Source of the DNA: a virus
Direction: 5' to 3' (one strand)
DNA: 39,564 bases
IMG/VR virus record: IMGVR_UViG_3300030329_002034
Location: 1 to 39,564 of that record
This document shows, piece after piece, positions 9,871 through 32,747 of this stretch (its first letter is position 1; every line of letters begins with the position of its first letter). The translations under genes were made by a program, and so were the position numbers. A model generated the notes under the pieces. That model made no database searches. It was given only the letters and a program-made list of their open reading frames with translations, and had not been told where the DNA came from.

Positions 9871-12800
9871 TTATTGTAAAGCGTTTGGATCTGCGATTTC
9901 TGGATATCTCTGCTCTATAGCTTCTATTCTAGGTTGATTGAATCTATACCTATCAGGTGCTTCATTAGGAGTAACTCCTTCTGGATAGTCTTGTGCATGT
10001 ACTTTGTCAATTATATTTCTAGCTTCTTCTGATTTAACAAATCGACCAAGAGTACTTATTGCATCATATAAATCTTTATGCTTTAGTATTTCTTCAGGGA
10101 TTGCCTTGTAATTTATATTTGCATAAAGATAATTCAACTGAAGTTCAGAAACATTAGGAGCAACTTCCTCTTCAAATCTTGCCCATATTCCAGCTTCTCC
10201 TCGAACTCTTAGCTGTTCCCCTTCTCCTGCGGCTTCGTATTCCCTTGCTATTTGCTTATATCTAGTCCAAGCTATTGCAATATTAGGATCTTCATTCGGA
10301 GCATGATATATAATATCCTGTCTCTCATCATTGTCTATATCCCAGTTATTTTCACGAGCCTGTAATTTATATATCATGTCGTTTTGTTTTCTAAAATCTC
10401 TTCTTATTTCAAAAAATTCATCGCTGACCTGTCTTATTAATTGTTTTCTGGTCTCTGTTCTAGGAGCTTTTATACTTGCTTCATATTGTTCTCCGAGCTT
10501 TTTCAATGCCTGAAACTCAAGGTACTCCTGTTCCGATAGTAACATTGTCCATTTGTCAGGTTGATACTGTCCTCCCATTTCTATACCTGCACTTATAATT
10601 TTTCTTTCGTAGGGCCAAAGTTGATTATATCCTCTGCCAAATACAGCTTCAGATAAATCCTCTTTTGTATGGTAAGAATTTGAACCACCTCCAACAAAGG
10701 ACAATAATGATAACCATCCAACTGATTCGTTTTTCCAATTTTCCCCTTCTCCGATAAGAAGAGTTCCGGGCATGTTTACAGCTTCTCTCACTTCTTGTAA
10801 CGCCAGTGGTACAAATCTGTTCCCGGCTTCATTTCTTAAGGAATCAGGATCTGCTAAATCTATATCTTCTCCGTAGTAGTTTCTTCCTCTTATCATATCT
10901 AGTGCTATATTAAATTGAGGAGAAGTTTTACTTTTCAGAAATCTTAAGAGTTGATTGCCTCTTCCCCCGTAGACAGGAACAGAATCTCCCTGTGCATTAG
11001 TAGTCTTACCAGATATAATCTTCCATGTATTTGAGATTATATTTCCGTAACCTGCATTTAGATCTATTCTTTGAGGACCCCATTTTCCCTTTCCAAAATC
11101 GGTAGATTCAGGATCATCTTGAACATCAGCTCCTCCCGCTTTCATTATACCTATTACCATTCCAATCAAAGCAGATGTCTTAACTAAATCAAAAATGATT
11201 GTATTTCGAGCCCATTTCGCTCCGGCATTATGAGCCATAAGTATGGATAGGGGAACTTGATACCTTGAAACAAAAAGTCTTGCAGACCAAAAAACACCAT
11301 TGGTTACTGGAGCTATTTTATTTAGATCGAATCCTGTTTCTCTGCCGAATATCTTTATCTTACCTAGATCCCCTCTACCTGTAGCATAATTTACAAACTT
11401 GGCGTATTGCTTAACATTTACATTCATTTTTGGAGTATCGTGCTTATACCCCTCACTGATCATTTTTTTATACGCGGCTAACATAGACTTAAACCTAAGA
11501 GCATTTAAGAAAGTGGCATGAAATCTTGAACTATGAGAAATTCCAGGAATCTTATTTGCTATTCCTGATATAAATGCTTCCTCTCTTTCATAAAGAGTAT
11601 CTCTTGCAAAGTACAATTCGCCGACATCTTGGAAGTATTTGAACAACGGATGAGACTCCATCTCTGCATTTACCTTGTGCATATTACCTTCGGATAGCAT
11701 AGCCTTAAGCGCGGGACCTATAGAAGCTCCCCATTCTTTAGGATAAGGAGCCAGTAAAATTCCTCCCTGTCTAAGTAATCCCGAAAGATCAATAGACGAC
11801 ATAACACTTCTAGGTATGTTCCAAACACCTACTACAAAATCCCAAAGATTTCCAAAGGAAGACCTTTGTGCTTTTGCAAGTTCATCTATTATTTCCTTTC
11901 CGAATACAACTTCTAAGGCATCTAGTTCTCCGCTTGTTAATATTTGACCTTTAGTTCTTTTCCATTCGGCTCTTGCTTTAGTTATATCTGCATCTACTCC
12001 TACAAGTTTTCTTAGTCCATCTGCAAAACGCCTAGCAGTTCCCGCCTGATAATAGTTATCCCTTACAGATATATCTGCAATCTTATCCCAACCACTTTTA
12101 AACACAGCATAAAATTCTGTTTTAGTCATTTCAGGAGTTGTGACAGTTGTTTCTATCTGAGCTTCTCCCTGAGCCTTTGCTATTATCGGAAGCCTTTTTA
12201 TGTCGTAGGGATCCTGAGCGAAAATTGCCGCAGGTTTTTTTCTCTTTCTTGCAAGCTCAGTCTGAGTTGCATCTCTTAACTTTCTTTCTCTTGAAACCCA
12301 AGATGTTACCCTGCCTCTCCATGCGTTCGCTATTTCATCAGTTGCTTGTCTTGAAAGTTCTCCAGTTGAAGTTATTGCTCCATCCTTTTTAATAATATCT
12401 GCTACATATTTTGGTACATGATCCTTTTCTCCTCCCCATTCAATTTCATAATAATCTTTATTTACCTTTTGAATAGATTTTGCTATTGCTTTTTTAGGGC
12501 TTTCAACGGGAGCGTCACCTATTTCTTCGTTTATTTTTTTCAAAATATCTATACGTTTTTGTAATTCCATTTGGGCATCTGTCAAAGGACTTGATAATTG
12601 ATCAATGTCTTCCCCATTTAGTTTGCCTATACTTTTTCCATCCTTATCTTTAGGTGCGTCTTCCCAGGGGTCAGTAACTCTTTTAAATTCAAATCCTCCT
12701 CCTTTTTCTATATCGTAAGCCTCTCTTATTTCTTCAGCGCCATCTTCGTAGTCTGCACTTTTAGGATTAGGTCTAGCTCCGTTATCAATAGTCGTATACC

Positions 12801-15800
12801 TATTTGTTCCTTCTACTACCATTCTTTCTGCATCTTCCGCCTCACGAGCAAAAAGTATTGGAGCTCTACTCATAAAAGATGAATCTTGATATCTCTGCTG
12901 AGAATTATGGCTACCAGCTCTAATACCTTTTTTATTTAAATCTGCTACATAATTATCATAGAATGAATTTTTTACATAATCTGTAGTTCTTTCCAAGTTA
13001 AAGGCTCTTGAAATTGCATTATCCATACCTAAACTTGTCTTTAGGAGTAACTCCTTCTGAACAAGTTGTTTTTGTTGGAAACTTGTCTGTCTATTCCTTA
13101 TATATTCAGAATACTTACCTACTGGCTTTTCATTGGAAACAAAATCTCCCATATAATTTCTAGGGGTTTGATCTGGTTTTGTCTTACTATGGTATTCCCT
13201 TACCCACTTTCTATATCCTTCAAATAATTCAGCTATACTTTTACCATGCTTAGAGGCGTTAGCGTCTGCATAGTTATTCCATATCCACTCTCTAATATGC
13301 CCCATTCTAGACGAGTTTTTATATGGGTTTCTGGTGAATTTCGGAACTAATTCAATTTGATCTTCTATGCCAAGACCAGCCCATTGATCTTCTTCTGATA
13401 GAGGATACTCTTGATGGGATACTCCCATCCTACTTATTTTATTTCTTTCTGCTGTATGTTTATTTTTTGCTATTCTTTTTTGAAGTTCTGACGGATCTAA
13501 ATCCTTTAATAATTTCACCGAATAGAGTCCTTCATCAGGGCTCATTCGACTAGCCCTATCAATAGCATCGACATAGTCTCTACTTGGTTTTAGCCCCTTT
13601 TTTACTCCATACTCTTGCATAAGCATTTCTACATAACGATTAAACATTACTGCATGATCAAGCAACATTGAAACACTATTTATAGGATCATCCCAATCAC
13701 CCGTTCCGTTTATAACCCCATTCTTTCCTGTAAATTTATCTAATATATCTGTATAACGAACTTCCCTGTTAATTCCTTCAGGCAATAAAAATCTTCTATA
13801 CAAATCTTCCATCCAATTCGAATAAGCAGATGACTCTACAGTTGTTTTAGCATTTTCCAAGAGGGGTTTCATTGATTCATTAAATTTATTAAATTGCCCT
13901 ATAGCGTCAAGCGGCTCAGTCCATTCATCTTGAGTTCCGGATATTAAGTCCCTGAATGTATTTTCATGTATACGTAAGTAATTCATATCTAACATATCAA
14001 GAACGGAATCGTTTCTACTTAAAATACTTTCAAGTAAAGATAGTCTTGAATGACCAACAGTTTTATTAATATAATCATGCCAATCAAGAGTTCTTTGTGT
14101 ACCTGAGTTCTTTTGAAATTGAGTTACTAAGAATCCTTCATATGTCTGATCATTTCCATTTGACTCTAGTAACCTTACATAATCAAATATATTCCATCCA
14201 GCCCCTGCTTGACTGAAATCTCTGTTCATTACCGGCTCCGGTCCGCTTCTAACCGGTGCATTCCCCATCATGCCTGCCATAGGTCTAAGCTCTTCTACTA
14301 TAGGAATTTGCCCAAGTGCACTATTCTCAATAATATATTGAGCTTGCATCATTGCTTTTTTTGTAGACCTTTCAAAGATATCGAAGAAATCATTATATTT
14401 ATTATTTAAAATATCATCTAATAGAGTTCTGTTTTCTAAATTTAAAGCATACCCATCATATTGGGTGCTCATCGCGTCGTTTATATTTCTAATTGCTCGT
14501 TGTTCTGCCTCAGGATCAATAGTAAACTTGTCAACAGTTGGCTTAATAGGATTTAATTGATAATCTCTAATTACTCGATGGGCTTCAGGATCGTAACTAC
14601 CCATCATAATGTTATATGCGTCTTCTCTGAAGATTAATCCAGGTCTATGATAATTTCCTAATGGTAGTATAGGATTTCCATATATATCTTTATCTGGAAT
14701 AAAATGAGATGCTCTTTCCCTTGCAGATAAACTTTCGAATGACTGCCCCTCTAATCTTATTGTAGGAAATTCTTTAGGATTAGTTGTATTTAAATGTCTA
14801 TTTTTTCCGTATTTAGTTATCTGAGGGCTAAGTAAAGATGGATCTCCCTTGAATCCAAATTTATATTGCCAGTCTCTTATAGTGCTTATCATTGTATGAA
14901 TTTTTGCATCTCTCTTCATGCCCTTTGTTAGGTGAGATGTGCGCCAGGGGTATTCGTCTATCCGTGAATCATATTTATCCCCTAATTCATGGAGGTCCAT
15001 CATTCTTCTTATTGAATAATTATGATTTAGATCTACATAACTAAAACTATCTATTGCCCCAAGATCTCCAATTATTTCAAGTTCACCGGGCTTACGGATT
15101 TTTATGTGCTTATTAAATTGCTGTAACACTTCAAGCCCTCCGCTCACTAGCTCGCCTGCCCACTGAGAAGGCTCTGGTAGATCAGAAACAAATTCTAAGT
15201 CTGAAGGAGTTTCTAGTTCCCGTTTAATCCCCTCTACCGGAAGGGTACTATCAAGAAATATATGATTACCATTAGGTACATTTAATCTAACTGCATGTAA
15301 TATTCCTTGTGCCTGATAGTCTTTAGTTGGGTTATACAGCTTAGGATTATAAAGATATAAAGCCTTCATTGACGCCTGAACTAAACTTTCGGTAAATTCA
15401 AAGCCTGAATCACCTCTTACAAGTTTCTTAAGTTCAGGTAAATCAAAGCCAAGCCTACGTGCTTCTGCTAATCGAGGTATATTCTGAATATTTTTATATC
15501 TGGTTCCAAGATCTCCTAGAAAATTTTTATTCCAAGTACTAGCAGTATGAAAAAATACTCCATCTCCAAAAACGCTGTTTAGGGTAGCCATGTCCTGGTC
15601 TGCTGTAAATCCTATATATTTAGCGGCGTTACTATTATTCCACCATAGAGTTGCCTTGAGAGAACCATCTTCTAGTCTCCAATTATTTGCATCTACAATA
15701 GCAGAGTAAATACCTGACGAATCTCTATTATCTGAAAATTTTTTTATCCATGCGCCCGCAACTGTATCGTCTACAATACCTTCGTTTTTTACAATATCGT

Positions 15801-18800
15801 CTAGTCTTCTGTTGGTATATATATTTATCAGTCTTAAAATATTCTGCATCTTCACCATCAGCTCAAACTCTTGTGTGTGTATGTCCTTCTGTCCTGTACG
15901 AATGAGAGTATCTCTTGTCACCTCATCATTCAGAAGGTCTCTTAAGAAGATTTCTACCCCCATAGTCTTTCCTCCAGGCTTTAGATTTATAGGATCAAAA
16001 GGACCTGTTGGTATATCAGTAGTGCCAAATATGTCTAAAATAGGAGTAGTGCCCCCGGGGTCACTCGAAAGCCACCTATCGGTTCTCTTGGCAAGTTCAA
16101 GCCAATTTATCGGATCTAAATCCCCAGGTCGAGGTACATCATACCCTCCTATGTCATACGGCAGTTCCTTGAGTCCAACTCTTTTCATAAATAAAGAAAC
16201 ATCGAACCTTCCTATCGGTCCTGTATACCATTCTATTTGCTTCCGGGTAAGAGGAACAGGTTCTAACACTCCACCATAAAAACCCATGCGAGACGGACCT
16301 CTTAATTTCATCAGTTCATCAGGGCTATATTGTTCAATTTGTAAAATGGGATTAGTTCTTGGTTGAGGGTTTAGAACTTCATCTATATTGGGATCTCTTA
16401 GACCCTGAAACGGACTTCTTGTATAGCGAAATCTTTGAAGTAAAATATCTCTTGCTCTTGTTATCGAGTCATTCTCTATTTGCATACCCTTTATTAGATT
16501 TTTTGTCACCTCTGGATCTAGGTCTGGATCAGGGCGACGCCCTTGCCAGCTATGCAATTTAGTTATTCTCTTTGCCAAAGATTCTTGAGAGCCAAACTGT
16601 GCAAATAAGTCAGATATTCTTTGGCTTCTTAAAAATTTATCACTAGAAACATCTACCCCTCTATACTGAATCTCTCCTTCAGTAAGGACTGAAGTAATAG
16701 GAGGGTTTTCAGGATCTATATATTCTGCCCAAAACCTAGACATAATCTCGTCACCCTGTTTACTAAGGGTATTATTTCCAAGAGCTCCCAACCCAATATC
16801 TTCTAAAAAGTCTTCGGCATTAAAGTCATTTATTGGTTTTCCTAATCTTATAACTTCTTTAAAACGTCTCAACTGACTGTTCGTAGCTGTAGCTACCCAA
16901 AGTTCATGTTTATTTGATTCTGAATTTATTCTTTTATATTCAAAGTCATCTAAAAACTGGTGAGAATTTAGAGATCCCGGAGAACTAGGATCGAGATGTT
17001 TAGCTCCACGTTCAGCATTTAATAAATCGTAGTCTTTAGGAAACCCTTCTGCTGGATCCAAAAACCATCTTAATATATTTGAGCCGGGTATTTTATTGAT
17101 ATCTGCATTGGTTACCTGATCTCCTAAATTAGTAACGAAATCTAAATTTGATCCGCTTAAATTTACCTTTCTTAAGGTTGTACCAATAGCTTTTGTTATA
17201 ATATCTAAATAAGTTCCTAACTCGCTATTACTATAACCAGTTAATAATTTACCTTTATTTTTTTGCCATCTTACAATAATTTCGGGCAATGCTTCAGCTT
17301 CGGCATCTGTAAGTAATTTTCTAATTGCTTCTGTTTGTTCATCAGTTAGTTTTCTGTCTCCTATCGCCCATACATCTGTAGCTTCGTAATTATTTCTTGC
17401 CTTAAAGATATCTCTTGAATCAAAAGCACGGGCAATCCCTTTGTGTTTATCTTGTCTGATACCTATATTATCTATCCACCATCTCATTATTGGGTCCATA
17501 TGCCCTCTATAAGCCTCAGGGGATATTGCATGCTTAATAAAATTATCAAAGATGTGAGTGGTTTCATGTATAACTGTATCTGCAACTACCTGAGGATCTG
17601 TTTTACTTTTAGGATCAATATTAATTGATACAAATTTTCTAATTAAACCAAACTGTTGTAGTAGTCGAGATGTTGCTTCCTCTTTATTTGTAAACCTAGA
17701 TACTGGATATGGTGTAGGCATATCTCCGGAGTACGCCTCAACTTGTTTGATATCAAATCTCTCACCTCCAGTACGCTTAAAGAATCTTTCTCTTGCATCT
17801 TGATCTAATATTTGAATATTATCAAATAGTCGACCAAATCCTTTTCCGTCAGGGATTCCTAGTAATTGTTCATGTATATCGTTAATCGCTACTTCCATAT
17901 CCTTAAGGAATGGTAAGGTTAATTTTCCTGCTTCATCTCCATAAACTTCTCCAATATATTTTGCAACATCTTCCGGTGTATCTATACGAAATGGTACATT
18001 CTTATAATGATCTAACCAATGCCCAACCTGTCGAGGAAGAGATACTTTTGTATAGGCATCTATTTCTTTCTGTATTTTTTTTCGTTGTTTGTTTAAATCT
18101 TTTAATATAGCTGTGTCTTTTTTTATTTCATTCTTAGAACTAGATTTATTTATATAATTAGGATACTCCCTATCAAACGACTCGTAATAACCAGTCTTAT
18201 GGCTATTAGTTATCTCTGTATCTTTTGCTTCTATTTCTTTAGTTACTTTTTCAAGATCTTTTTCAAGTCTTGTAAAATGCGGATTTTTTTCTGTTCGTAA
18301 TCTTTTAGCTATTTTTTCTTGTTGTTCAGCGACTGTTCCTATAGTCACTTCTCTGGTGGTAGCTTCTTTATCTCCCCAAGTTCTCAACTTTGCAAAATTT
18401 ACCCTATCCCATCTTTTTCTTGTAGTTTCTAAAAGTCGGTCTACGTTCTTATGAATAACATTTTTATTGACATCAATATTCATAAGATATGTAACCATAG
18501 CTCTATCTCTAAGATCTAGGTCAACAAGTTCTGGTTTTAGAAGTAACTGTGTAGCTAACTCTACGTCTCCTCCTAGTGGATCAGCCTTTACCAGTGCATT
18601 TCTAAGATGCTCTCTTTGTTCAGGTGTTTTAGTCTCATATCCATCTCCGACAATCCTTATTTTATCAATCGCTTTATTAAGGGCTTCAGGTGTAAATTTA
18701 TTATTTAATTTTCTGTACGCTTCTATTTCAGGTCTAAATGCCTTTACAAGATCGGTATTTCTGAATCTTCCTAACATTATTCCTATCGGCACACCTCTAT

Positions 18801-20373
18801 ATAAACCTCCACCCATTCCTATTCCCACTTCTCCCCAGGTCTGATATTTTTCCGGCATATCTTGTATTACAGGATACAGTGTACTTGTGGCTTGTTGATA
18901 CCCTTCTTCAAGCTGTTGCTCTCCGTACCATCTTCCCATTGGTCCTCCGAATCGTGTAACAGGATCTGTAACTAGTTTTGCTACTCTAAACGGAAGGCTT
19001 ATAGGTAATCCAAGATAAGAGATCTTACGTAACGAATTGGCAATCGCGCCCAAACTTCTGCTTAGATAAGGTGCTGTAAGGGCCAACAGCGCCATTGAAC
19101 CTTGAATTAAAGGCGATGATTCTTCAGATAAGCCTTTAGGTCCTATCAATTTACTAACATCCAATCCACTATATCCTTGCATAGTATAAGGATTCATTGG
19201 GGCCATGTTTAATGACGCATCACGGGCTTGTTGATAAGCCAAAAACTTTTCCAATGCACCTGTTTCTTTCTGCCATTCTTCGCTAAATGGCTTAGGCTTT
19301 CCTTCAAGTTGCCATAAGGGAGGACCAAAATCTAATGCAGGATTGTCAGGTACATGAGGATATTTAATACCCATAGGATCTTCTTTTCTCCACATCTCTC
19401 TTATTTGATTTTCAGATAATGAAGGACCAACAATTTTTTGCCACCAGCTTACCTCTTCCCATTCTTCAGCGGTTGGGTTTCTATTATTTTCTAATTGAAA
19501 TTTTTTATATATATCAGGGGCTTCAAGTCTTCCCCATACAGGAACAAGGGCATCACGCATGCGAGTAGAAATATGATCTATCTGCTTTGGAAACATTCCA
19601 TTGTGAATAGTATAATATATCTGAGAGACAGGATTCTGTCCTTCATGTTTACTATTACTAATATTTACATCATTTCCTTCTACAGCATTTTTAAAATTAG
19701 TAAATGGAGTAATATATTCTTCAGGTATAAGCCGACCTGCCGATTCTGTATCGAATAAAAAGTCATATACTTCCTTGATGCCTTCAAATCCCACAACAAC
19801 TGTATCGTCTTTCCAATTACGAGACTGAATAAACTTTGTCATTGCATCTAAATGACCTACAATCTTCTCCCTATCCGATGCAGTCTCATACTTTAATGAG
19901 AACCCGTCACCTACAGGTATACTATCGGGAACTTTGTATCCATTCCAAAGTACTGTAGTTTTTTCTAATGTATCCAGAAACTTTGAATCAAATATAATCC
20001 TATCACTTTTCTTCATTCCTCCTAATGAATCTACTTCATTCTCAAATCTTTCTATCTCAGGGGCAAGTTTTTTATGATCTGTTACCTTTAGGCTTCCCTC
20101 AGGCAAGTTATACGCTGGAGCAACAATACTATTAGCGTAGTCATCAAAGTACTGTGACATGTTTTTTGTCATGTCTCCGGGTAAACTATTTCCATTATGA
20201 AGAAAGGTAGGCTGGGAAGGTTGAGGTAGGTTACTATCTATAGATTCTCCGGGCAAAAGCATATTATCGGCTTTTGGAAACTCTAGGTTTTTCTCTCGTT
20301 TTTTTGGTGTAGGAAGTACAGGTCCATACTTTGCCCACTCAGAAAAATCTGGAAAGGATCTTGGGAATACCAT
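9871..20373 (-). CDS. giant 3500-residue polyvalent virion protein with zincin motif
   Basis: One uninterrupted frame of 3500 codons, about 27% of the window. Visible parts: hydrophobic segments near residues 420-460 and 520-545; a charged coiled coil at roughly 690-780; a metallopeptidase-type HETTH at 936-940 (VIHETTHIFDNF) fitting HEXXH zincins; a long region without recognised domains; and at about 2840-3100 a block (WNIPRSVMSSIDLSGLLRQGG, later NGVFWSARLFVSRYQVPLS) like the C-terminal large-polyvalent-protein-associated domain (LPD38-type) of phage mega-proteins, with a hydrophobic segment near 3065. It is coupled to its upstream gene by a TAATG overlap. Likely packaged in the head and ejected with DNA, with the protease acting on cell wall or host proteins or on itself. 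Length equals that given for the N4 virion RNA polymerase, but no polymerase motifs were found. Confidence 0.75.
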   Translation of the reverse strand: MVFPRSFPDFSEWAKYGPVLPTPKKREKNLEFPKADNMLLPGESIDSNLPQPSQPTFLHNGNSLPGDMTKNMSQYFDDYANSIVAPAYNLPEGSLKVTDHKKLAPEIERFENEVDSLGGMKKSDRIIFDSKFLDTLEKTTVLWNGYKVPDSIPVGDGFSLKYETASDREKIVGHLDAMTKFIQSRNWKDDTVVVGFEGIKEVYDFLFDTESAGRLIPEEYITPFTNFKNAVEGNDVNISNSKHEGQNPVSQIYYTIHNGMFPKQIDHISTRMRDALVPVWGRLEAPDIYKKFQLENNRNPTAEEWEEVSWWQKIVGPSLSENQIREMWRKEDPMGIKYPHVPDNPALDFGPPLWQLEGKPKPFSEEWQKETGALEKFLAYQQARDASLNMAPMNPYTMQGYSGLDVSKLIGPKGLSEESSPLIQGSMALLALTAPYLSRSLGAIANSLRKISYLGLPISLPFRVAKLVTDPVTRFGGPMGRWYGEQQLEEGYQQATSTLYPVIQDMPEKYQTWGEVGIGMGGGLYRGVPIGIMLGRFRNTDLVKAFRPEIEAYRKLNNKFTPEALNKAIDKIRIVGDGYETKTPEQREHLRNALVKADPLGGDVELATQLLLKPELVDLDLRDRAMVTYLMNIDVNKNVIHKNVDRLLETTRKRWDRVNFAKLRTWGDKEATTREVTIGTVAEQQEKIAKRLRTEKNPHFTRLEKDLEKVTKEIEAKDTEITNSHKTGYYESFDREYPNYINKSSSKNEIKKDTAILKDLNKQRKKIQKEIDAYTKVSLPRQVGHWLDHYKNVPFRIDTPEDVAKYIGEVYGDEAGKLTLPFLKDMEVAINDIHEQLLGIPDGKGFGRLFDNIQILDQDARERFFKRTGGERFDIKQVEAYSGDMPTPYPVSRFTNKEEATSRLLQQFGLIRKFVSINIDPKSKTDPQVVADTVIHETTHIFDNFIKHAISPEAYRGHMDPIMRWWIDNIGIRQDKHKGIARAFDSRDIFKARNNYEATDVWAIGDRKLTDEQTEAIRKLLTDAEAEALPEIIVRWQKNKGKLLTGYSNSELGTYLDIITKAIGTTLRKVNLSGSNLDFVTNLGDQVTNADINKIPGSNILRWFLDPAEGFPKDYDLLNAERGAKHLDPSSPGSLNSHQFLDDFEYKRINSESNKHELWVATATNSQLRRFKEVIRLGKPINDFNAEDFLEDIGLGALGNNTLSKQGDEIMSRFWAEYIDPENPPITSVLTEGEIQYRGVDVSSDKFLRSQRISDLFAQFGSQESLAKRITKLHSWQGRRPDPDLDPEVTKNLIKGMQIENDSITRARDILLQRFRYTRSPFQGLRDPNIDEVLNPQPRTNPILQIEQYSPDELMKLRGPSRMGFYGGVLEPVPLTRKQIEWYTGPIGRFDVSLFMKRVGLKELPYDIGGYDVPRPGDLDPINWLELAKRTDRWLSSDPGGTTPILDIFGTTDIPTGPFDPINLKPGGKTMGVEIFLRDLLNDEVTRDTLIRTGQKDIHTQEFELMVKMQNILRLINIYTNRRLDDIVKNEGIVDDTVAGAWIKKFSDNRDSSGIYSAIVDANNWRLEDGSLKATLWWNNSNAAKYIGFTADQDMATLNSVFGDGVFFHTASTWNKNFLGDLGTRYKNIQNIPRLAEARRLGFDLPELKKLVRGDSGFEFTESLVQASMKALYLYNPKLYNPTKDYQAQGILHAVRLNVPNGNHIFLDSTLPVEGIKRELETPSDLEFVSDLPEPSQWAGELVSGGLEVLQQFNKHIKIRKPGELEIIGDLGAIDSFSYVDLNHNYSIRRMMDLHELGDKYDSRIDEYPWRTSHLTKGMKRDAKIHTMISTIRDWQYKFGFKGDPSLLSPQITKYGKNRHLNTTNPKEFPTIRLEGQSFESLSARERASHFIPDKDIYGNPILPLGNYHRPGLIFREDAYNIMMGSYDPEAHRVIRDYQLNPIKPTVDKFTIDPEAEQRAIRNINDAMSTQYDGYALNLENRTLLDDILNNKYNDFFDIFERSTKKAMMQAQYIIENSALGQIPIVEELRPMAGMMGNAPVRSGPEPVMNRDFSQAGAGWNIFDYVRLLESNGNDQTYEGFLVTQFQKNSGTQRTLDWHDYINKTVGHSRLSLLESILSRNDSVLDMLDMNYLRIHENTFRDLISGTQDEWTEPLDAIGQFNKFNESMKPLLENAKTTVESSAYSNWMEDLYRRFLLPEGINREVRYTDILDKFTGKNGVINGTGDWDDPINSVSMLLDHAVMFNRYVEMLMQEYGVKKGLKPSRDYVDAIDRASRMSPDEGLYSVKLLKDLDPSELQKRIAKNKHTAERNKISRMGVSHQEYPLSEEDQWAGLGIEDQIELVPKFTRNPYKNSSRMGHIREWIWNNYADANASKHGKSIAELFEGYRKWVREYHSKTKPDQTPRNYMGDFVSNEKPVGKYSEYIRNRQTSFQQKQLVQKELLLKTSLGMDNAISRAFNLERTTDYVKNSFYDNYVADLNKKGIRAGSHNSQQRYQDSSFMSRAPILFAREAEDAERMVVEGTNRYTTIDNGARPNPKSADYEDGAEEIREAYDIEKGGGFEFKRVTDPWEDAPKDKDGKSIGKLNGEDIDQLSSPLTDAQMELQKRIDILKKINEEIGDAPVESPKKAIAKSIQKVNKDYYEIEWGGEKDHVPKYVADIIKKDGAITSTGELSRQATDEIANAWRGRVTSWVSRERKLRDATQTELARKRKKPAAIFAQDPYDIKRLPIIAKAQGEAQIETTVTTPEMTKTEFYAVFKSGWDKIADISVRDNYYQAGTARRFADGLRKLVGVDADITKARAEWKRTKGQILTSGELDALEVVFGKEIIDELAKAQRSSFGNLWDFVVGVWNIPRSVMSSIDLSGLLRQGGILLAPYPKEWGASIGPALKAMLSEGNMHKVNAEMESHPLFKYFQDVGELYFARDTLYEREEAFISGIANKIPGISHSSRFHATFLNALRFKSMLAAYKKMISEGYKHDTPKMNVNVKQYAKFVNYATGRGDLGKIKIFGRETGFDLNKIAPVTNGVFWSARLFVSRYQVPLSILMAHNAGAKWARNTIIFDLVKTSALIGMVIGIMKAGGADVQDDPESTDFGKGKWGPQRIDLNAGYGNIISNTWKIISGKTTNAQGDSVPVYGGRGNQLLRFLKSKTSPQFNIALDMIRGRNYYGEDIDLADPDSLRNEAGNRFVPLALQEVREAVNMPGTLLIGEGENWKNESVGWLSLLSFVGGGSNSYHTKEDLSEAVFGRGYNQLWPYERKIISAGIEMGGQYQPDKWTMLLSEQEYLEFQALKKLGEQYEASIKAPRTETRKQLIRQVSDEFFEIRRDFRKQNDMIYKLQARENNWDIDNDERQDIIYHAPNEDPNIAIAWTRYKQIAREYEAAGEGEQLRVRGEAGIWARFEEEVAPNVSELQLNYLYANINYKAIPEEILKHKDLYDAISTLGRFVKSEEARNIIDKVHAQDYPEGVTPNEAPDRYRFNQPRIEAIEQRYPEIADPNALQ

Positions 20374-24222: not shown

Positions 24223-25650
24223 TTACCATCTCTTTACTGAAATAATTTTACTTGACAGTGACGCTCTGGCATATCCAAAGTTTATCACAAGTCCATACGT
24301 TATAGCTTTAACCCCATGATTAAAGGCATCTCTTGGAGTTTTTCCGATAGTGTTTCCCTCTCTGTCGGTCTTCCATGAATACACATGGACCTGATCGTCA
24401 AAAGGATTTGTTCCTCCACCTAACTCTGATATTACACCACGACATCGGGGGTTGAATACCATGTAAGGCATACCATTTTCAAGATTTGTTTTCAAAAATG
24501 TATTAAATCTTTCTATACCATCCGTAATTCCGACTCTTTGGGATTGCATGTATAGTGCGGCTTTATGAAGCCATGTATCTACCGGTCTTGATTCTCCTGC
24601 GGCGTTAGCCGCAACATCTATAACACCCTGAGAAACATCCTTCCACCACTGTCGACCCTGACATATCTCTATAATATCTTCGGTTGTCTTTTCTCTTTCA
24701 AAGACTTCATCAATAACTATCACACGATTGTTTATTATCTGAACAACCATCACAGCATATGCAGATTGAGTAACCTGTGAATATCCTGGGTCTACCCATA
24801 GATGCACCGGTTCTCCTTCAATATATTCTGCTTCGGAAGTTACATGAAGGTCTGATCTAAATAAATTATGGACTAGCCCTCTGGGTGGAGCAGGCTTACC
24901 TGCAACTCGTTCATTGAACCAGTCTTCACTGTGCAAGGTTTCCAATGATTTTATTTCAGGGTCTTCTCTACCCAGAGGATAAACCCGTTTATTAGTCCAG
25001 GAGGGCAAGGAAAAGGAGACAGCACTATCATCTGGATTAAAGTATTGCCATGCTTCCCAAAGCGACGGGTACCAGCCGAGAGAACTTTCGAATGTTCCCT
25101 CAAGAAATAACCAACCACGTTTCTCTGCGATACGACCTCTGAGTCTTAGGAAACTTTCGTGGTCTATCTGTGATGCCTCACACGCTACGATCATTCGTGG
25201 TGCTTCCATCGCCAGGGATCTGTGGTCTTGTGCTGACTTTGTTTTTATAGTAAATGTTCCCGGACTATCGGTAGAGCCACACGCTACAACCATATTTCCA
25301 GGATCTATTCTCTTTGAATGGCTTACCAAGAATCCCATCCCTCCTAATATATCTAAGAGATAATTCCATTCAGCTCGTGTTCGTTCATAGTCTCTAGCAA
25401 CTAGCCATACTATATCTTTATGTTCAAAATGATCTAACTTGGAAATAATAGACAGTGCTCCAAGAAAACTCTTGCCTGCTCTTTCACCTCCAGCCACTAG
25501 CTTTATCCTAGCGGGATGGTCTAGGATCTCATCTTGTTCCCTCCATGTTCCCACGTCTACCTGTTCTAATATGGCTTTTCTATCAGTCGCTAACATAATA
25601 TATACTGGTAAAGATTGTTCCACTACACCGACAGAAACAATCCAGAGCAT
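24223..25650 (-). CDS. terL: terminase large subunit (packaging ATPase-nuclease)
   Basis: 475 residues from the ATG at 25650; an alternative ATG at 25596 (MLATDRK) would give 457, and neither has a clear ribosome binding site. The N-terminal ATPase carries an adenylate-binding region (WREQDEIL) and a variant Walker A, AGGERAGKS at residues 53-61, followed by IVWLVARDYERTRAEWNYLL and a Walker B-like segment RMIVACEAS. The C-terminal nuclease has LWVDPGYS (first acidic residue), VIVIDEVFERE, GVIDVAANAAGESRP and the FDDQVHVYSW segment. It pumps DNA into the head through the portal encoded next. First gene of the late operon, behind the promoter at 25712-25739. Its small subunit partner is encoded 3.5 kb away at 28729-29205. 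Confidence 0.9.
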   Translation of the reverse strand: MLWIVSVGVVEQSLPVYIMLATDRKAILEQVDVGTWREQDEILDHPARIKLVAGGERAGKSFLGALSIISKLDHFEHKDIVWLVARDYERTRAEWNYLLDILGGMGFLVSHSKRIDPGNMVVACGSTDSPGTFTIKTKSAQDHRSLAMEAPRMIVACEASQIDHESFLRLRGRIAEKRGWLFLEGTFESSLGWYPSLWEAWQYFNPDDSAVSFSLPSWTNKRVYPLGREDPEIKSLETLHSEDWFNERVAGKPAPPRGLVHNLFRSDLHVTSEAEYIEGEPVHLWVDPGYSQVTQSAYAVMVVQIINNRVIVIDEVFEREKTTEDIIEICQGRQWWKDVSQGVIDVAANAAGESRPVDTWLHKAALYMQSQRVGITDGIERFNTFLKTNLENGMPYMVFNPRCRGVISELGGGTNPFDDQVHVYSWKTDREGNTIGKTPRDAFNHGVKAITYGLVINFGYARASLSSKIISVKRW

Positions 25651-25797: not shown

Positions 25798-25838
25798 AAC
25801 AATACATACTACTATTTATAGTAGTTGTATGTATTGTT
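25798..25838. other. 41-base hairpin in the divergent control region
   Basis: AACAATACAT pairs with ATGTATTGTT (10 bp), then ACTACTA pairs with TAGTAGT (7 bp) around a TTTA loop, with a 3-base bulge on the right arm. There is no T tract on either side, so it is not a standard terminator. It sits eight bases after the last G5 tract and touches the next palindrome. An origin, replication-protein or regulator binding site is plausible. Confidence 0.6.
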
Positions 25839-25850: not shown

Positions 25851-26181
25851 CATCATAAAAGAGTAAAGGTGGGCAAAATAAATATTGGTAGGGGTGTTCT
25901 AAAAATACCCCTGAAATTTAGGGGGGTACATATCCTCTTGCTCTTTCTGTTTCTTCAAAGGCTACCCCCCCTCTTGTAACTGTTTATCTTATTACTGTTG
26001 TTATTATCTTTCAGTGTTGTTTGATTGTATTGGTATTGTTTGTTGTTGATGTTAGGTGTGCCTAAGGCAAGTGTGGATGGGATGTTAACGCGCACGCGGA
26101 TGCGCGCTGTCAGAGCGGGCAGGCTCGGGCAGGCGCCTACGTGAGATTTTGCCACGAATTTTGAGATTGGAAAAAGCATAC
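25851..26181. other. noncoding control region with several inverted repeats
   Basis: No credible gene; the minus-strand frame 25955-26188 has a TTG start, no ribosome binding site and low-complexity sequence. It holds inverted repeats AGGGGT/ACCCCT (25890-25895, 25907-25912) and AGGGGGG/CCCCCCT (25920-25926, 25966-25972), a TTGT-rich stretch at 26025-26050, a 3-bp GCC-TAA-GGC hairpin (26060-26068), a CGCGCA/TGCGCG hairpin (26089-26106), and a tandem repeat of CGGGCAGGC at 26116 and 26126. G+C content rises sharply after about 26086. The promoter for the plus-strand genes must lie here or just after, but no clear -35/-10 pair was found. Confidence 0.5.
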
Positions 26182-26241
26182 AGATCAATAAAAAAAAATT
26201 TCCCCTTACGTAAGTAAGGGAAATTTATTTTTTAGTGATCT
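26182..26241. terminator. 60-base palindrome, bidirectional terminator-like
   Basis: AGATCA (26182) to TGATCT (ending 26241) are the ends of a near-perfect inverted repeat. Its core AAATTTCCCCTTAC / GTAAGGGAAATTT forms a strong stem with one bulged base around a GTAA loop. In the plus direction the stem is followed by ATTTTTT, and in the minus direction by a run of T. The structure is that of a bidirectional intrinsic terminator, but it ends just before the ribosome binding site (GAAGGAGGT) of the first plus-strand gene, so it may act as an attenuator for that gene. Confidence 0.65.
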
Positions 26242-26255
26242 GAAGGAGGTCAAAA

Positions 26256-26594
26256 ATGCCAAACCCTAACTCCCAACTCGAAGAGTTGGCTAAACTACTA
26301 GCATCTGCTTTAGCAGATGCTAACGAACCTAAGTCTTCGAAGAAGACTTCAAAGAAGTCCACTAGGTCTGAAAGACCTAGCAAATCGAAGACCGTTGGTC
26401 GTGTGCCCGCTAGGCGAGCCCGCACTCGAGCTGACCGACGCGAGGAACTTGCCAAGCAACTACGTTGCCATGTCAAGGGAACGATTCCCCCTTTCTCCGA
26501 AAGGGAGCTCAAACTGATCGTTGAGCACCGAGAGGCTTATCCACTACTCCGTAGTGGAGAAGAGCTCCGATTAGAAGTTCACCCTAAACCGTAA
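26256..26594 (+). CDS. small basic protein, hairpin-rich gene
   Basis: 112 residues, with AAGGAGG six bases upstream of the ATG. An amphipathic N-terminal helix (SQLEELAKLLASALADA) leads into a Lys/Ser/Arg-rich linker (residues 26-60) and a C-terminal part with ELAKQLRCHVKG and SERELKLIVEHREAYPLLRSG. The charge suggests nucleic acid binding. The family is not recognised. The coding sequence is built from successive perfect inverted repeats (see the array at 26273-26725), and the stop codon TAA lies inside the four-base loop of one of them. Base composition is richer in G+C than in later early genes. The start site and codon-sized sense of the protein support translation, but the RNA itself may also be functional. 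Confidence 0.65.
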   Translation: MPNPNSQLEELAKLLASALADANEPKSSKKTSKKSTRSERPSKSKTVGRVPARRARTRADRREELAKQLRCHVKGTIPPFSERELKLIVEHREAYPLLRSGEELRLEVHPKP

Positions 26595-26725
26595 GGTTTA
26601 GGGATGACACTTGTTCATAGAACAAGTTACGCCCAAATTTGAGCTAGGCGTTACGTGCGTATAACGCCAAGCCAAAACAAACTAAACCAACACGCACGGA
26701 AAGGAATAGAAAATTGCATTTCTAT
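26273..26725 (+). repeat. tandem array of distinct perfect hairpins
   Basis: Successive perfect inverted repeats with different stems: 26273-26289 (7 bp, loop GAA), 26299-26322 (11 bp, TT), 26331-26349 (8 bp, GAA), 26362-26380 (8 bp, GAA), 26390-26400 (4 bp, GTT), 26456-26468 (5 bp, TAC), 26477-26489 (5 bp, CGA), 26489-26505 (7 bp, TCC), 26507-26526 (6 bp, 8-base loop), 26540-26558 (8 bp, TCC), 26582-26603 (9 bp, GTAA), 26609-26627 (8 bp, ATA), 26647-26668 (7 bp, 8-base loop), 26706-26725 (7 bp, 6-base loop). A partly mismatched one is at 26405-26419. An alternative 6-bp hairpin at 26345-26359 competes with the third. The array crosses the end of the 112-codon gene without change. Confidence 0.85.
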
Positions 26726-26923
26726 CAAGCAGGCGAGCTAGCAAGCGGGGGGCATGGCTTTTCAGTCATCCAACCAACTAGCGAGCCATCAGACGCGGGG
26801 AATACCTACGTACTCGATGAACAAGAGTGTCACAGATGCTCGTGGGCGAGTAAGGATTCCAACAACCAACCATTCTCTCACGAGAGTGTCGAGCACGCAA
26901 AGGAGGAAAATTCATCATGGTAA
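26714..26923 (+). CDS. possible small protein, TTG start
   Basis: 69 residues beginning at TTG 26714, with AAAGGAA about eight bases upstream. The product (MHFYQAGELASGGHGFSVIQ..., then ECHRCSW) has a CxxC and reads as ordinary protein, and it overlaps the start of the next small gene by seven bases, as in coupled phage genes. Against it: the start codon sits in the loop of the last array hairpin, and an overlapping frame at 26754-27107 is also open. Treat as a candidate; no family recognised. Confidence 0.35.
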   Translation: MHFYQAGELASGGHGFSVIQPTSEPSDAGNTYVLDEQECHRCSWASKDSNNQPFSHESVEHAKEENSSW

Positions 26924-27059: not shown

Positions 27060-27111
27060 TACACTACACTTTTACCCCTTTTATTTATAAAAGGGGATAA
27101 AAGTTAGTGTA
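27060..27111 (+). other. 24-bp intergenic hairpin
   Basis: TACACTACACTTTTACCCC and the TTTTAT that follows pair with ATAAAAGGGGATAAAAGTTA and the remaining GTGTA, giving about 24 base pairs with two single-base bulges and a two-base apex. No T tract follows, so it is unlikely to be a terminator. It lies between two early genes, just before an AGGAG site. Similar long stems at 27395, 27976, 29460 and 37151 suggest mRNA processing or stabilising elements. Confidence 0.7.
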
Positions 27112-27134: not shown

Positions 27135-27377
27135 ATGCCAATCGTTAGGCAAGCGTATAACATGAACTCGGAGATCGGTTATTTGATCTCACGTACAGGC
27201 GGAAAGTGCAACAAACCACCTAGACTCGCCACTGCGGACACGAAAAGAAGGTGGAGAAATGATCTAGCCAAGAGGCGTAGGTTCGAGCACAAGGAGGCGA
27301 AGTCACTTGGAATGACTAGAAAAGAATACAAGCGTCACCTACATGACGTGGTCGTGTACGGGGGGTTTGGAAAATGA
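27135..27377 (+). CDS. small basic protein, unknown
   Basis: 80 residues with AGGAG eight bases upstream of the ATG. Very basic: TKRRWRNDLAKRRRFEHKEAK forms a continuous positively charged helix, followed by SLGMTRKEYKRHLHDVV. Two cysteine-free halves, no membrane segment. Probably binds nucleic acid or an acidic host protein. The gene lies between two long hairpins (27060-27111 and 27395-27453), so its message would be trimmed to a short unit if these are cut. A 6-bp hairpin (27171-27190) lies early in the gene. Confidence 0.6.
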   Translation: MPIVRQAYNMNSEIGYLISRTGGKCNKPPRLATADTKRRWRNDLAKRRRFEHKEAKSLGMTRKEYKRHLHDVVVYGGFGK

Positions 27378-27394: not shown

Positions 27395-27453
27395 CATCAC
27401 GAGAATATATATTTCTCATATTTATATGAGAAAAATATATATTCTCTGTGATG
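27395..27453 (+). other. 26-bp intergenic hairpin
   Basis: CATCAC...CTCATA (27395-27420) pairs with TATGAG...GTGATG (27425-27453) around a TTTA loop. It is almost fully paired over 26 base pairs, with only an extra AA and an extra T on the right arm. It is long enough to be a substrate for RNase III. It carries no downstream T tract. It fills most of the gap between two early genes. Confidence 0.75.
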
Positions 27454-27514
27454 AGAGAAGTTATGTTTTGGTTGGAAAACAATTAGTGTGCAGACATGCA
27501 CGAAGGAGACAACT

Positions 27515-27961
27515 ATGTCCAAATCTACCAACAGTCGTTATGACGTCAGAATGCGTATGGGTGAAGAGCTAGGAATAGCTAGAGAGGATAACAAGCATCC
27601 GTTACGAGTGCTCAAGCAGATGTACGAGGATAAGTTCGGAGAGGGTGTTTTGGTAACAAACTACCCACGTTTCAAGGGCAAGAAAGCATCAGTCACAGGT
27701 GGGAAAATAGATGCGTCTAAATTCCCCTCTGAAGACTTGCTCGACAAGAACGGAAAACCTCTCATGGGGTTTGCGCTTGAGAAGAGAGTTCAGAAACTCT
27801 CTAAAGGCAAAACTGTCACTGCTACACCTGTAGCGGACAAGACAGATAACGTAAGGTTCGAGAAGATCGAACATTCAGTAGGTCAGCTTACAGACGTGGT
27901 GAAACAGCTTACACAAGCGTTCATGGACTCTAAAGTTGAACAGGAAACTGCTACAAAGTAG
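27515..27961 (+). CDS. early protein, unknown
   Basis: 148 residues from ATG 27515, chosen because AAGGAG precedes it at a normal distance; an in-frame ATG at 27488 has no such site. N-terminal segment SRYDVRMRMGEELGIARED then a helical stretch (LRVLKQMYEDKFGEGVLV), a Lys/Gly-rich middle (KGKKASVTGGKID), and a C-terminal coiled-coil-like helix (FEKIEHSVGQLTDVVKQLTQAF). Not recognised. Likely an early host-interaction or DNA-binding protein from its basic charge and position. It contains local hairpins, for example 8 bp at 27783-27802. Confidence 0.6.
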   Translation: MSKSTNSRYDVRMRMGEELGIAREDNKHPLRVLKQMYEDKFGEGVLVTNYPRFKGKKASVTGGKIDASKFPSEDLLDKNGKPLMGFALEKRVQKLSKGKTVTATPVADKTDNVRFEKIEHSVGQLTDVVKQLTQAFMDSKVEQETATK

Positions 27962-27975
27962 CAGTGTTATAATAG

Positions 27976-28004
27976 GTGCGGGAGTAAGTATCTTACTCCC
28001 GTAC
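27976..28004 (+). other. 13-bp intergenic hairpin
   Basis: CGGGAGTAAG (27979-27988) pairs with CTTACTCCCG (27992-28001) around a TAT loop; three more outer pairs (one G-T) extend it to 13. It lies in the short gap before the GTG start at 28023, leaving the AGGAG site (28011-28015) free. There is no T tract. It belongs with the other early intergenic stems. Confidence 0.7.
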
Positions 28005-29505: not shown

Positions 29506-29535
29506 TTGACAACAGGTACAGAGGTACTGTACTAT
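29506..29535 (+). promoter_or_regulatory. promoter of the ATPase-VWA operon
   Basis: TTGACA (-35, 29506-29511), 18-base spacer, TACTAT (-10, 29530-29535). The -35 is consensus; the -10 matches four of six. Transcription would begin about 30 bases before the ATG at 29572, leaving room for the AGGAG at 29557. This promoter explains how genes from 29572 onward are expressed independently of the small early genes. Confidence 0.6.
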
Positions 29536-29571
29536 GATACAACCCCAAAAAAAGTTAGGAGAATTATACTT

Positions 29572-30591
29572 ATGGGAACTGTAGACATACGCTCAGCACT
29601 TAAAAAAGCAGAGCAAGAGGGAGACTTCTTCAACGATTTCGCTGTAGAAGTAGCCGAAAGAACCTATCAAATGAGACCTTCACCGGTCTTGCAGATAGGA
29701 GCGACAGGATGGGGCAAGACAAAACTTGCTAGGTTCATCGCGTCGTTAGCTGACCTAGAGTTTGTAGGTGTCAATGCCTATCCTGGCATGGATATATCTC
29801 AACTGATAGGAATGTGGAGACCAAAGAACTCCAATGGAAACATTGAAGTTGCTTGGGAAGACGGATTGCTAACACAGGCAATACGTAAAGGTGCACTCTT
29901 CGCACTAGAAGAGATCACAAGACTACCACGTAAGATGCAGGGTAGACTGCTCGGTGTACTTGACTCCGAGAATAGATACTACTCGTTACCTGAGGCAGGT
30001 ATCAGTAACATAGAAGTCAACGAAGACTTTTGGTTAGTTGCTACTGCTAATCCTACAGGTGGAGGGTATGATACATCATCTCTTGATCGTGCTTTGACAC
30101 GTAGGTTTGGAGCTATATTCAATGTGAACCAACCTTTGTGCGATGAAACACGTAAGTTTGAATACGAATTACGTAAGTATTACGATGAAGAATTTGCAGT
30201 GAACAGAGCAAAGAGCATGGTCAAATGGGCAACTGACCTTAGGCAAGCCGATAAAATTTCAATCAATACAGGTGAGGTTGTTCAGCTAATACATAACTCT
30301 AGTTTTGCACCTATAAAAGATGCCTGTCTTTGGACTATAGCACCTAAGTACAACGATAGTGATGTGAGCAAGATAATGACAAACTTGGATGCTCAATTTC
30401 ACAACGAGGATGATTGGGAAAAGCACAGAATAGATACCCCAACTGTGATTGCAGTCGCAAATGGTAGTACTACTAAAGTTGCTCCGACTATCGAAGAGCG
30501 TAAGAACTCTGTAACAACAGATGATCTGACTAGCATGTTTGCAAGTATGATGCAAAAACTAGAAGATAAGAAAGATTCGAGGGATGAATAA
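29572..30591 (+). CDS. MoxR/CobS-like AAA+ ATPase
   Basis: 339 residues from ATG 29572, chosen because AGGAG precedes it by ten bases; an in-frame TTG at 29506 is the promoter -35 box. Walker A GATGWGKT at 43-50, Walker B-like LFALEE at 109-114 with Glu in place of the usual Asp, sensor 1 LVATANPTGGG, and an arginine-finger region LDRALTRRFG. This is the MoxR branch of AAA+ proteins, which remodel a substrate together with a VWA partner; phage copies are often labelled CobS from the cobalt chelatase pair. The next gene (one-base overlap) supplies that partner. A metal-chelatase reaction is not supported; a chaperone-like role in virus development or host takeover is more likely. Confidence 0.85.
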   Translation: MGTVDIRSALKKAEQEGDFFNDFAVEVAERTYQMRPSPVLQIGATGWGKTKLARFIASLADLEFVGVNAYPGMDISQLIGMWRPKNSNGNIEVAWEDGLLTQAIRKGALFALEEITRLPRKMQGRLLGVLDSENRYYSLPEAGISNIEVNEDFWLVATANPTGGGYDTSSLDRALTRRFGAIFNVNQPLCDETRKFEYELRKYYDEEFAVNRAKSMVKWATDLRQADKISINTGEVVQLIHNSSFAPIKDACLWTIAPKYNDSDVSKIMTNLDAQFHNEDDWEKHRIDTPTVIAVANGSTTKVAPTIEERKNSVTTDDLTSMFASMMQKLEDKKDSRDE

Positions 30592-32747
30592 TGCCTAGTT
30601 GGTTTGAAGAACAAGCTGAACAGTATAGCTTTAATAAAGACTGGCAGTCACTTATTACTTCTACTCTTGGTCAAGAGATACAAGACGGATCACGTAGACG
30701 TAATGATAGACGTAAGTTTGGTAGCGGGATAGTTCATATAGATGCTAGAGCGGGATATGCTAACAATCCTGTAGTGCGTCTTCCTAGTAGACCAAATGCA
30801 ATAGACAAACTAATGGCGGGAGTAGCATCTCGCTTTAGTTACCTAGACTTACAGACAGTAGTTGCTGAATCGGTAGATCTTGCTCGTGACTATGAACATG
30901 GTAAGACAGTAGAAGGGGATGTAGAAAATGACTATTTCTATCGTATTAGAAACATGCTAATGCAGAACCGAGAGATAGCACAACAGGTAGAGCTGATGCT
31001 TGCGGTTAGAAACGGAGCGGATCACTTCAATGCACCTGAAATTATAGACAATGCTAGGATGAGATTGCAAGATAGTTTCTATGGGAAGTTGAACAGAAAT
31101 AAAACGGCAGTCAATCATAATCTTAATCAATCCATAGTAGAGAACTACATGGATGTAGTTTTAAGAGCCTATGACAAAGTGCTGTCAAGTGAACAGTGTA
31201 TGAAGTGTACCAAATCAGCATTTAGTCATCATATAAAACATATCAGAAGAGATCCGTCTGCGTTCAATGACAATACAAAGAGTCCTCGCTCTAGTATATG
31301 TAATCAAGTTGATTACGATCATTGGGAACATACATGTACAGATCTTAAAATAAAGTGTCTTTCTTATGATGCAACTCCATCTCTTATCTTTACTGGTATT
31401 CACAAAAGTAAAAAGATAGTTAACGATCAAACGCAGGACATTATTGAAATGCAAGGGTTCATAGGAGGGTATGAAGATACAAAGTTTGCTGAGTCTATGT
31501 GGGGAGCTGTTGCTATTGAGGTAGCGGGAGGTAACTCTCAGAATCCTTATGCAGAAGAGATTGCCAATAGATTCTTCATCAAGAATCCTATTACTAAGGA
31601 ATACATTAGCAATCCAAAGGACATATCATGGGCAATGGTATTTACCTGTGTAGCTATCTTAGATCTAATGATGAAAGCTAAACCTAAAGATTTTGGTTTA
31701 GATAATTCACAGTATTTTGAAAGCAGAAACCAAGAGAGAAAGGAAAATACTTTTCAAGGTACTCAAAATCCCGACTGGATCCAGAGAAGAATAAACTGCG
31801 ACAATACGGATGCAAAAAGAAACAGCGAACTATTATTCGATGATTCAAAGGAGAACGATCTTCTGACAGGTACAAAGTTTGAATCAATGACAGAAGAGCG
31901 CATGGAACTGATAGATAATATGTTATCGAAAAAGATAGAACTAAGGTATGGAACAGATGAAGATGAGGAGGAACGTGCAGACTTATCTGAACCTGACACA
32001 GGGGAACATGCTGACTTTGATTACATGAGAGGTGGGGTTTTGGAAAAAGAAACAGCGAACTATGCCTCAATTGAAAGATTAGTAATAGAGGAATTTGAAC
32101 CTACTACTGTAGGGGATGAAGAACTTGAACTACCTGTTAGTAGTATAAATGGTATGCCAACTCATAAAGCATGGCAAATTCCATACGGAAACATGGAAGT
32201 TTTTACTAGACAGGATGATGAGTCACCTGAGCTAGTCATACTGTTAGATAATTCAGCCTCAATGTTGTGGGGAATGAAAATTATAGGGCGTGATGAGAAT
32301 AACTACCCTATCCATAGCACAGAACCCTATATATTAGCATGGAGTGTGGCTATGACCATCAAGAATACTTACCCTAAGACACGAATCTACCCTTACTCAT
32401 CATTCGGTGTGTTTACAGGAGAGATAGAGGTGGGAAAAAGAGTACCTATTCTTGACAGGAGCGGAACTCCTACGGAGAGAACTCTTCTATGGTTAGCAGA
32501 CAAACTATTCGACAGGTTAGACAGAACAAATGTACTGCTTATCAGCGATGATGAACAGGGGTATGGCGTAGGAGATGTTTGTTCATACCTAAGGCAAAAA
32601 GAGTCAATGAGTCTAGGGCTTGTTCAAGTAGGGCATGGTACTAGAAACTGGATGCGAGACTTTCCAAGTGATTTCAGTATGAAGATACGTAGCTTGGAAG
32701 ATATAAAGGAAGTACGTTCAATAATAGATAGGGTAACAGCATTATGA
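30591..32747 (+). CDS. VWA-domain partner of the AAA+ ATPase (CobT/CoxE-like)
   Basis: 718 residues. The C-terminal von Willebrand A domain begins near residue 545: LVILLDNSASM carries the MIDAS DxSxS (D553-S557), followed by ILAWSVAMTIKNTYP, a TERTLLWLADKLFDRL helix and LLISDDEQGYG. Around residues 200-260 a Cys/His cluster (CMKCTKSAFSHHIKHI, then CNQV, HTC, KC) may bind zinc. Residues ~420-480 are acidic, as in CobT-type subunits, which use an acidic hinge before the VWA. The start overlaps the ATPase stop (TAATG) and the end overlaps the next gene by four bases, so all three are made together. Acts with the ATPase as a substrate-selecting subunit. Confidence 0.8.
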   Translation: MPSWFEEQAEQYSFNKDWQSLITSTLGQEIQDGSRRRNDRRKFGSGIVHIDARAGYANNPVVRLPSRPNAIDKLMAGVASRFSYLDLQTVVAESVDLARDYEHGKTVEGDVENDYFYRIRNMLMQNREIAQQVELMLAVRNGADHFNAPEIIDNARMRLQDSFYGKLNRNKTAVNHNLNQSIVENYMDVVLRAYDKVLSSEQCMKCTKSAFSHHIKHIRRDPSAFNDNTKSPRSSICNQVDYDHWEHTCTDLKIKCLSYDATPSLIFTGIHKSKKIVNDQTQDIIEMQGFIGGYEDTKFAESMWGAVAIEVAGGNSQNPYAEEIANRFFIKNPITKEYISNPKDISWAMVFTCVAILDLMMKAKPKDFGLDNSQYFESRNQERKENTFQGTQNPDWIQRRINCDNTDAKRNSELLFDDSKENDLLTGTKFESMTEERMELIDNMLSKKIELRYGTDEDEEERADLSEPDTGEHADFDYMRGGVLEKETANYASIERLVIEEFEPTTVGDEELELPVSSINGMPTHKAWQIPYGNMEVFTRQDDESPELVILLDNSASMLWGMKIIGRDENNYPIHSTEPYILAWSVAMTIKNTYPKTRIYPYSSFGVFTGEIEVGKRVPILDRSGTPTERTLLWLADKLFDRLDRTNVLLISDDEQGYGVGDVCSYLRQKESMSLGLVQVGHGTRNWMRDFPSDFSMKIRSLEDIKEVRSIIDRVTAL
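31814..32063 (+). repeat. 20-base direct repeat read in two frames
   Basis: The 20 bases AAAAAGAAACAGCGAACTAT occur at 31814-31833 and 32044-32063, 230 bases apart, both inside the VWA gene. Because 230 is not a multiple of three they are translated differently (KRNSEL versus EKETANY). A shared sequence that ignores the reading frame points to a nucleic acid-level cause. Confidence 0.7.

Follow-up and report, generated by a model that had tools for sequence, protein, structure and literature searches.

Why should the first gene of a phage operon be packed with short inverted repeats, no two of them alike? The question is raised by an IMG/VR phage record, analysed here over its whole length of 39,564 bases (the window), for which comparison with 50,697 phage records gave no nucleotide relative. 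Its leftward genes include those for the large terminase subunit, the capsid protein and a giant protein of 3500 aa; the rightward genes, of which the first starts at 26256, include those for an AAA protein, a primase-polymerase and a DNA methyltransferase. Cumulative GC skew reaches its minimum near 25 kb, which is compatible with an origin there, though gene orientation alone could produce it. The 112 aa product of the first rightward gene gave no confident match in fold comparison, and its only relative found is a 67 aa protein of a related phage, G001 (49% identity over 59 residues). The capsid protein is distantly related (28-31%) to pelagiphage capsids, and terminase relatives (40%) are found on two contigs (L206, L207) of Chloroflexota/Dehalococcoidia MAGs, a possible hint as to the host of this phage group; the phages that bear arrays of the kind described below are uncultured and probably marine.

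The sequence-only reading had described, between 26273 and 26725, a dense run of distinct short-loop hairpins that continues past the end of the gene. An inventory of perfect stems of at least 7 bp within this interval bears it out: there are ten, eight of them with loops of 2-4 nt, the stems are all different, and the stop codon does lie in a loop (Table 1). The cluster starts earlier than had been noted, at a long near-palindrome; positional counterparts of other sequence, recognized by inspection, precede the first gene of G001, L127 and G009. Downstream, a sparser enrichment extends to about 28.0 kb. Another long near-palindrome stands at 25800-25835, upstream of terL. Membership of a repeat family or Rfam family is ruled out: no recurring unit, REP-like or CRISPR-like, is present among the window stems, and an Rfam 15 scan of the window gave nothing above gathering score. 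Most array hairpins are without a T run in an intrinsic-terminator scan, the only ones flagged being at 26203 (+ strand, in the leader), 26358-26384 (- strand) and 26629-26651 (- strand).

Table 1. Hairpins and neighbouring features, in window coordinates.
Feature	Position	Strand	Description
Large terminase subunit (terL)	24223..25650	-	neighbour gene, used for finding relatives
Long near-palindrome, first-early-gene leader	26181..26242		ends at Shine-Dalgarno; DNA fold z = -10, both strands
First early gene	26256..26594	+	112 aa basic protein, outside known families
Hairpin	26273..26289		7 bp, loop GAA
Hairpin	26299..26322		11 bp, spacer TT
Hairpin	26331..26349		8 bp, loop GAA
Hairpin	26362..26380		8 bp, loop GAA
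Hairpin	26489..26505		7 bp, loop TCC (GGA on - strand)
Hairpin	26540..26558		8 bp, loop TCC (GGA on - strand)
Hairpin	26582..26603		9 bp, loop GTAA containing stop codon TAA 26592-26594
Hairpin	26609..26627		8 bp, loop ATA, 3' of first gene
Hairpin	26647..26668		7 bp, 8-nt loop
Hairpin	26706..26725		7 bp, 6-nt loop
25-nt inverted repeat, 80% complementary	27060..27111		10-bp perfect core; precedes ORF at 27135
Thinner continuation	27412..28001		perfect hairpins 27412-27433, 27783-27802, 27947-27965, 27979-28001

Neither chance nor coding produces this density. Nowhere else in the genome are perfect short-loop hairpins clustered as densely as in the stretch 26203-26725, with up to 9 in 460 nt; the maximum per 460 nt in 200 dinucleotide shuffles of the genome was 1-3, and once 4, so that the claimed excess over chance stands. 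Over the whole window there are 28 such hairpins (stem of at least 7 bp, loop of 2-5 nt) where 10.9 are expected. Within the first gene itself 6 are present, against a mean of 0.23 and a maximum of 3 in 500 synonymous-codon shuffles, and the folding energy of the gene's RNA lies 4.8 standard deviations below that of the codon-preserving shuffles (z = -4.8), the comparison by which selection for folding had been proposed to be judged. Relative to dinucleotide shuffles, the folding energy of the region 26240-26730 has a z of -9.4 for the + strand and of -8.5 for the - strand.

Capsid and terminase proteins led to about 160 loci of related phages, in which perfect hairpins with stems of at least 7 bp and loops of 3-5 nt were counted. 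About 18 related contigs carry arrays, at roughly 4-15 hairpins per kb against about 0.1-0.4 expected. The position assigned to the array in the window, at the first early gene, recurs in these relatives: their arrays lie 0.5-2.5 kb from terL, at the start of an early operon that points away from it. Most of the relatives are either hairpin-dense or near background upstream of terL (G012, G018 and G008 are among those with few hairpins or none), with intermediate densities in L165, L173, L176 and L179; in G024 and G025 the enrichment continues for about 10 kb, with falling density. It is the place of the array that the phages have in common, not the sequences of the stems. Near-identical arrays (99.9%) were recovered from separate metagenomes (L144, L145, G015), and the array is therefore not a product of assembly. 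No comparable array was found in the distant cultured pelagiphages HTVC112P and HTVC202P, nor in the Chloroflexota MAG contigs that carry TerL relatives.

Most phages with an array have a first early gene from a single divergent family, whose helical products have the motif VTSGxVDLxMV and a C-terminal helix. The first genes of the window and of G001 are unrelated to it (motif GxELRLEVHPxP), yet bear the array, which is therefore not tied to one gene family; in G001 the usual family is represented by a gene about 1 kb further downstream, with fewer hairpins. The array thus follows position rather than gene. Nor is it confined to genes: in G009, L141, L189 and G015 clusters are also present ahead of the first gene, at distances of up to several hundred bases, and clusters outside genes are packed more tightly (the median gap is 8 nt there and 13.5 nt within first genes). 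A MoxR/CobS-like AAA ATPase gene is followed in the window by that of a large protein with relatives that give weak matches to von Willebrand A domains (29506-32747 for the two), a pair similar to gp24 and gp25 of N4-like phages. As a partner of the array this AAA-VWA pair was rejected: it occurs in most bearers but is absent from L148 and L156, and is present in G037 and G038, where the array is weak.

Maintenance of the stems was followed by covariation in the closest family, that of L141, L166, L134, L142 and L150, by tracing 25 hairpins of L141 through the alignment; the window's own protein could not serve, since no relatives of it beyond that of G001 were found. In this family 95% of alignment cells pair, a figure to be read with the fact that a structure derived from L141 favours the true register on pairing, though not on double changes. 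Nine pairs have changed on both sides, a number reached in 1 of 500 shuffles, whose mean is 3.8; slid registers give only 0-2 double-changed pairs, and the true register exceeds them all. Between L142 and L141 none of 136 stem positions differ, as against 94 of 681 other positions, and when the L166 hairpins are followed in L141, 107 pairs are unchanged, 4 have changed doubly and none singly. Silent sites behave likewise: at third codon positions 2 of 58 stem sites differ between L141 and L166, against 19 of 83 of the rest (p = 0.001), and L134 shows the same direction, not significantly. In the divergent families B, C and D many individual hairpins have been replaced and the array persists. 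The aligned sequences indicate that array stems are kept folded within a family by compensatory change. Thus the compensatory changes that had been called for do exist, in related phages and in stems other than the window's own, and together with the codon-preserving shuffles (0.23 expected, 6 present) they uphold the proposal of selection for folding on top of coding. In the same family one hairpin, GTAACT-AGG-AGTTAC, is unchanged in L141, L166 and L134 (alignment A5, columns 1368-1382); its loop holds part of the Shine-Dalgarno sequence of the next gene, and similar AACTAGGAGTT sites stand before other genes.

What kind of nucleic acid is being folded? We examined the grammar of stems and loops over 11 array zones, some of them from related phages, so that the tests are not fully independent. 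Perfect 8-bp stems can be placed 100 times where 1.03 are expected; stems do not exceed 12 bp and are mostly of 6-9 bp, and hairpins follow one another at about one per 20-35 nt. Tolerance of G-U pairs of the kind seen in RNA stems was not found: 8-bp stems with one interior mismatch have G.T 17 times and A.C 12 times, and one-sided stem changes between relatives give G.T 93 times and A.C 85 times, so that, in contrast to RNA stems, little advantage of a G-U pair can be seen. Spacers are most often of 2 (82), 3 (114) and 4 nt (57), where 3-4 of each are expected. The minimum loop in RNA is 3 nt, and the 2-nt spacers fall below it. The pair closing the loop is C-G in 132 cases and G-C in 20 (control hairpins, 20 and 14). 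Among 116 triloops, GNA (28) and its complement TNC (18) make up 46 where 19 are expected (p = 3e-9), and the earlier remark on GNA loops thus holds statistically, with an uneven distribution: the excess is strong in the window, G015, L156 and L181, and weak in L141, L143, L189 and G004. UUCG occurs in none of 123 tetraloops; GNRA tetraloops show a mild excess on the + strand (9, against 2.9 expected).

The two strands are almost equivalent in these respects. Loops outside genes have no strand bias (A 0.29, T 0.32), and the bias towards A-rich loops inside genes resembles that of the linkers. Folding of the sense strand is slightly favoured in 11 of 11 arrays (mean z about -1.1), as it is in 6 of 8 control segments. 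Two of the roles first suggested are affected: a strand-specific element is unsupported, because the hairpins are nearly strand-symmetric, and a structured or decoy RNA, though folding energy does lie far below that of shuffles as expected of a structured mRNA, is weakened by the absence of UUCG and by a frequency of G-U pairs barely above that of A-C mismatches. C(GNA)G is a loop of extra stability in DNA: for d(GCA) loops, C-G closure is 1.9 kcal/mol more stable than G-C closure (PMC5815330), and the promoter hairpins of phage N4 require a C:G closing pair and a loop with 5'G and 3'A for extrusion from supercoiled DNA (PMC4496689). Overall the grammar suits DNA better than RNA, and we judge action at the DNA level the more likely, though not proven.

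We therefore prefer, at a probability of about 0.4, an array of DNA mini-hairpins that folds on either strand and has as its target the early operon or an origin close by. The many different mini-hairpins that selection holds within and beside the operon's first gene would be enabled to fold by negative supercoiling of the intracellular genome, raised further by transcription, or by single-stranded stages of replication; and the folded stretch would serve as a platform, recognized by structure and not by sequence, for the control or protection of the early operon or of an origin in the divergent region. We infer both the folding of the hairpins as DNA in the cell and the function downstream of it, and identified no protein or process that reads them. 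Against the DNA reading stands the length of the stems, 6-9 bp being short for a cruciform to extrude; moreover, Watson-Crick, strand-symmetric stems would also suit a role needing an RNA and its complement both to be folded, and a role at the level of the transcript would likewise agree with the way in which hairpins thin out along the early operon.

The main rival to action as DNA takes up this last point: hairpins in the first early message may leave RNase E-like enzymes or RNA-targeting defences little unpaired RNA to attack, being themselves too short, at 12 bp or less, for RNase III. Density does peak in the first early gene and fall along the operon, and the RNA of the sense strand folds strongly in each array (z = -5 to -15), with the slight sense advantage and mild GNRA excess noted above. 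We consider it unlikely, if the most serious of the alternatives, in view of the poor tolerance of G-U pairs, the preference for 2-nt spacers, the absence of UUCG, an enrichment of TNC loops, ordinary in sense RNA, that equals that of GNA, and the clusters that precede the first gene by several hundred bases in the four phages named, which are possibly transcribed.

Symmetry between strands could also be accommodated if the array proofs the region against hybridization, both strands being self-paired so that CRISPR or Argonaute guides, or antisense RNAs, misfold or cannot pair. Watson-Crick-only stems, a hairpin every 20-35 nt or so, fast turnover of sequence with pairing preserved, patchy presence and location in the first-expressed genes would all agree with this; the loop grammar, however, is of DNA type, and we found no precedent in the papers searched, so that this explanation appears rather improbable. 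A replication origin or packaging site made of hairpins beside the terminase gene would draw on the DNA-level grammar, on the divergent region with its GC-skew minimum, on the adjacency of array and terL and on the permuted contigs of two relatives. G024 and G025 (L118 and L117), with roughly 95% identical genomes, have contig breaks at different places and a terminase-capsid distance preserved across the contig ends; this circular permutation suggests headful packaging, and makes a role of the array at a fixed genome end unlikely. G012 and G018, with terminases 74-75% identical, have no array, which is therefore unneeded for a conserved core step, and 20-40 hairpins over 1-2 kb, plus about 10 kb of thin enrichment in G024, exceed by far the number used in the hairpin origins known to us. 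We regard such a site as improbable. Template switching in quasi-palindromes, which makes and perfects hairpins without selection, could account for perfect stems, double changes and strand symmetry, but is quite doubtful as the source of an effect restricted to one region, in which closing pairs and loops obey stability rules and in which the stems of family A have changed less than other positions, silent sites included.

Only about the last 800 aa of the giant protein (9871-20373) are conserved between relatives, and the remainder is unrelated even where terminases are more than 70% identical; it resembles large polyvalent proteins, which are its named viral fold matches in a low-confidence model. 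A genome search with PF00940 gave no match anywhere, with controls also silent. That this giant might be a virion RNA polymerase, and the array its N4-type promoters, is suggested by its N4 vRNAP length and place in the structural module, by the C(GNA)G hairpins of the early region and by its C-terminal domain, which 7 of the 9 tested records with arrays possess, the window among them, but only one record without an array, G034; it is most improbable all the same, and we do not propose the giant as reader: no RNA polymerase match was obtained in Pfam, PHROGs or PDB by sequence or fold, most of the protein is not conserved, G024 and G025 bear arrays without the domain, its association with arrays amounts to very few independent events on the terminase tree, and the hairpins have no recognition bases in common.

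The preferred reading, of mini-hairpins acting as DNA, shares much with the N4 promoters, which are likewise small DNA hairpins of the early region, with 5-7 bp stems, 3-nt loops, a C:G closing pair and a GNA-type loop, and which fold by supercoiling (PMC4496689). In our arrays C:G closure and GNA loops are enriched as a class, not in every hairpin or phage; N4 has a few promoters, which share recognition bases and start transcription at a fixed site, whereas the arrays have 20-40 unrelated hairpins per phage, differing throughout in stem and loop, and no recognized RNA polymerase. The genome-scale ordered RNA structure of RNA viruses offers the other likeness, that of dense local hairpins laid over coding sequence without conservation of that sequence, but it belongs to RNA genomes, while the array occupies one region of a double-stranded DNA phage and its stems are Watson-Crick-only and nearly strand-symmetric. 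REP, ERIC and RPE palindromes are also short and numerous, and some lie in genes, but they are repeat families. The array is thus like N4 hairpins in physics and like ordered RNA structure in layout, and belongs with neither. We found no precedent in the open-access literature for dense, non-repetitive, compensatorily maintained mini-hairpins in the genes of a double-stranded DNA phage.

RNA viruses are well known to be under selection for dense self-pairing; we know of no such selection in the genes of double-stranded DNA phages. Tentatively, then, we see here a previously undescribed phage element, a dense set of non-repetitive mini-hairpins over the first early genes that protects or controls the early region through DNA shape alone. 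As it covers whole genes the array may influence the proteins that they encode; an AAKAAKAAKAA stretch in G015, for instance, contains the hairpins GGCTGCTAAAGCAGCC and GGCAGCTAAAGCTGCC. If it is a device for evading defence or for early control, it is one with simple rules that can be tested by synonymous recoding, and the array would be a new signature to seek in phage genomes.
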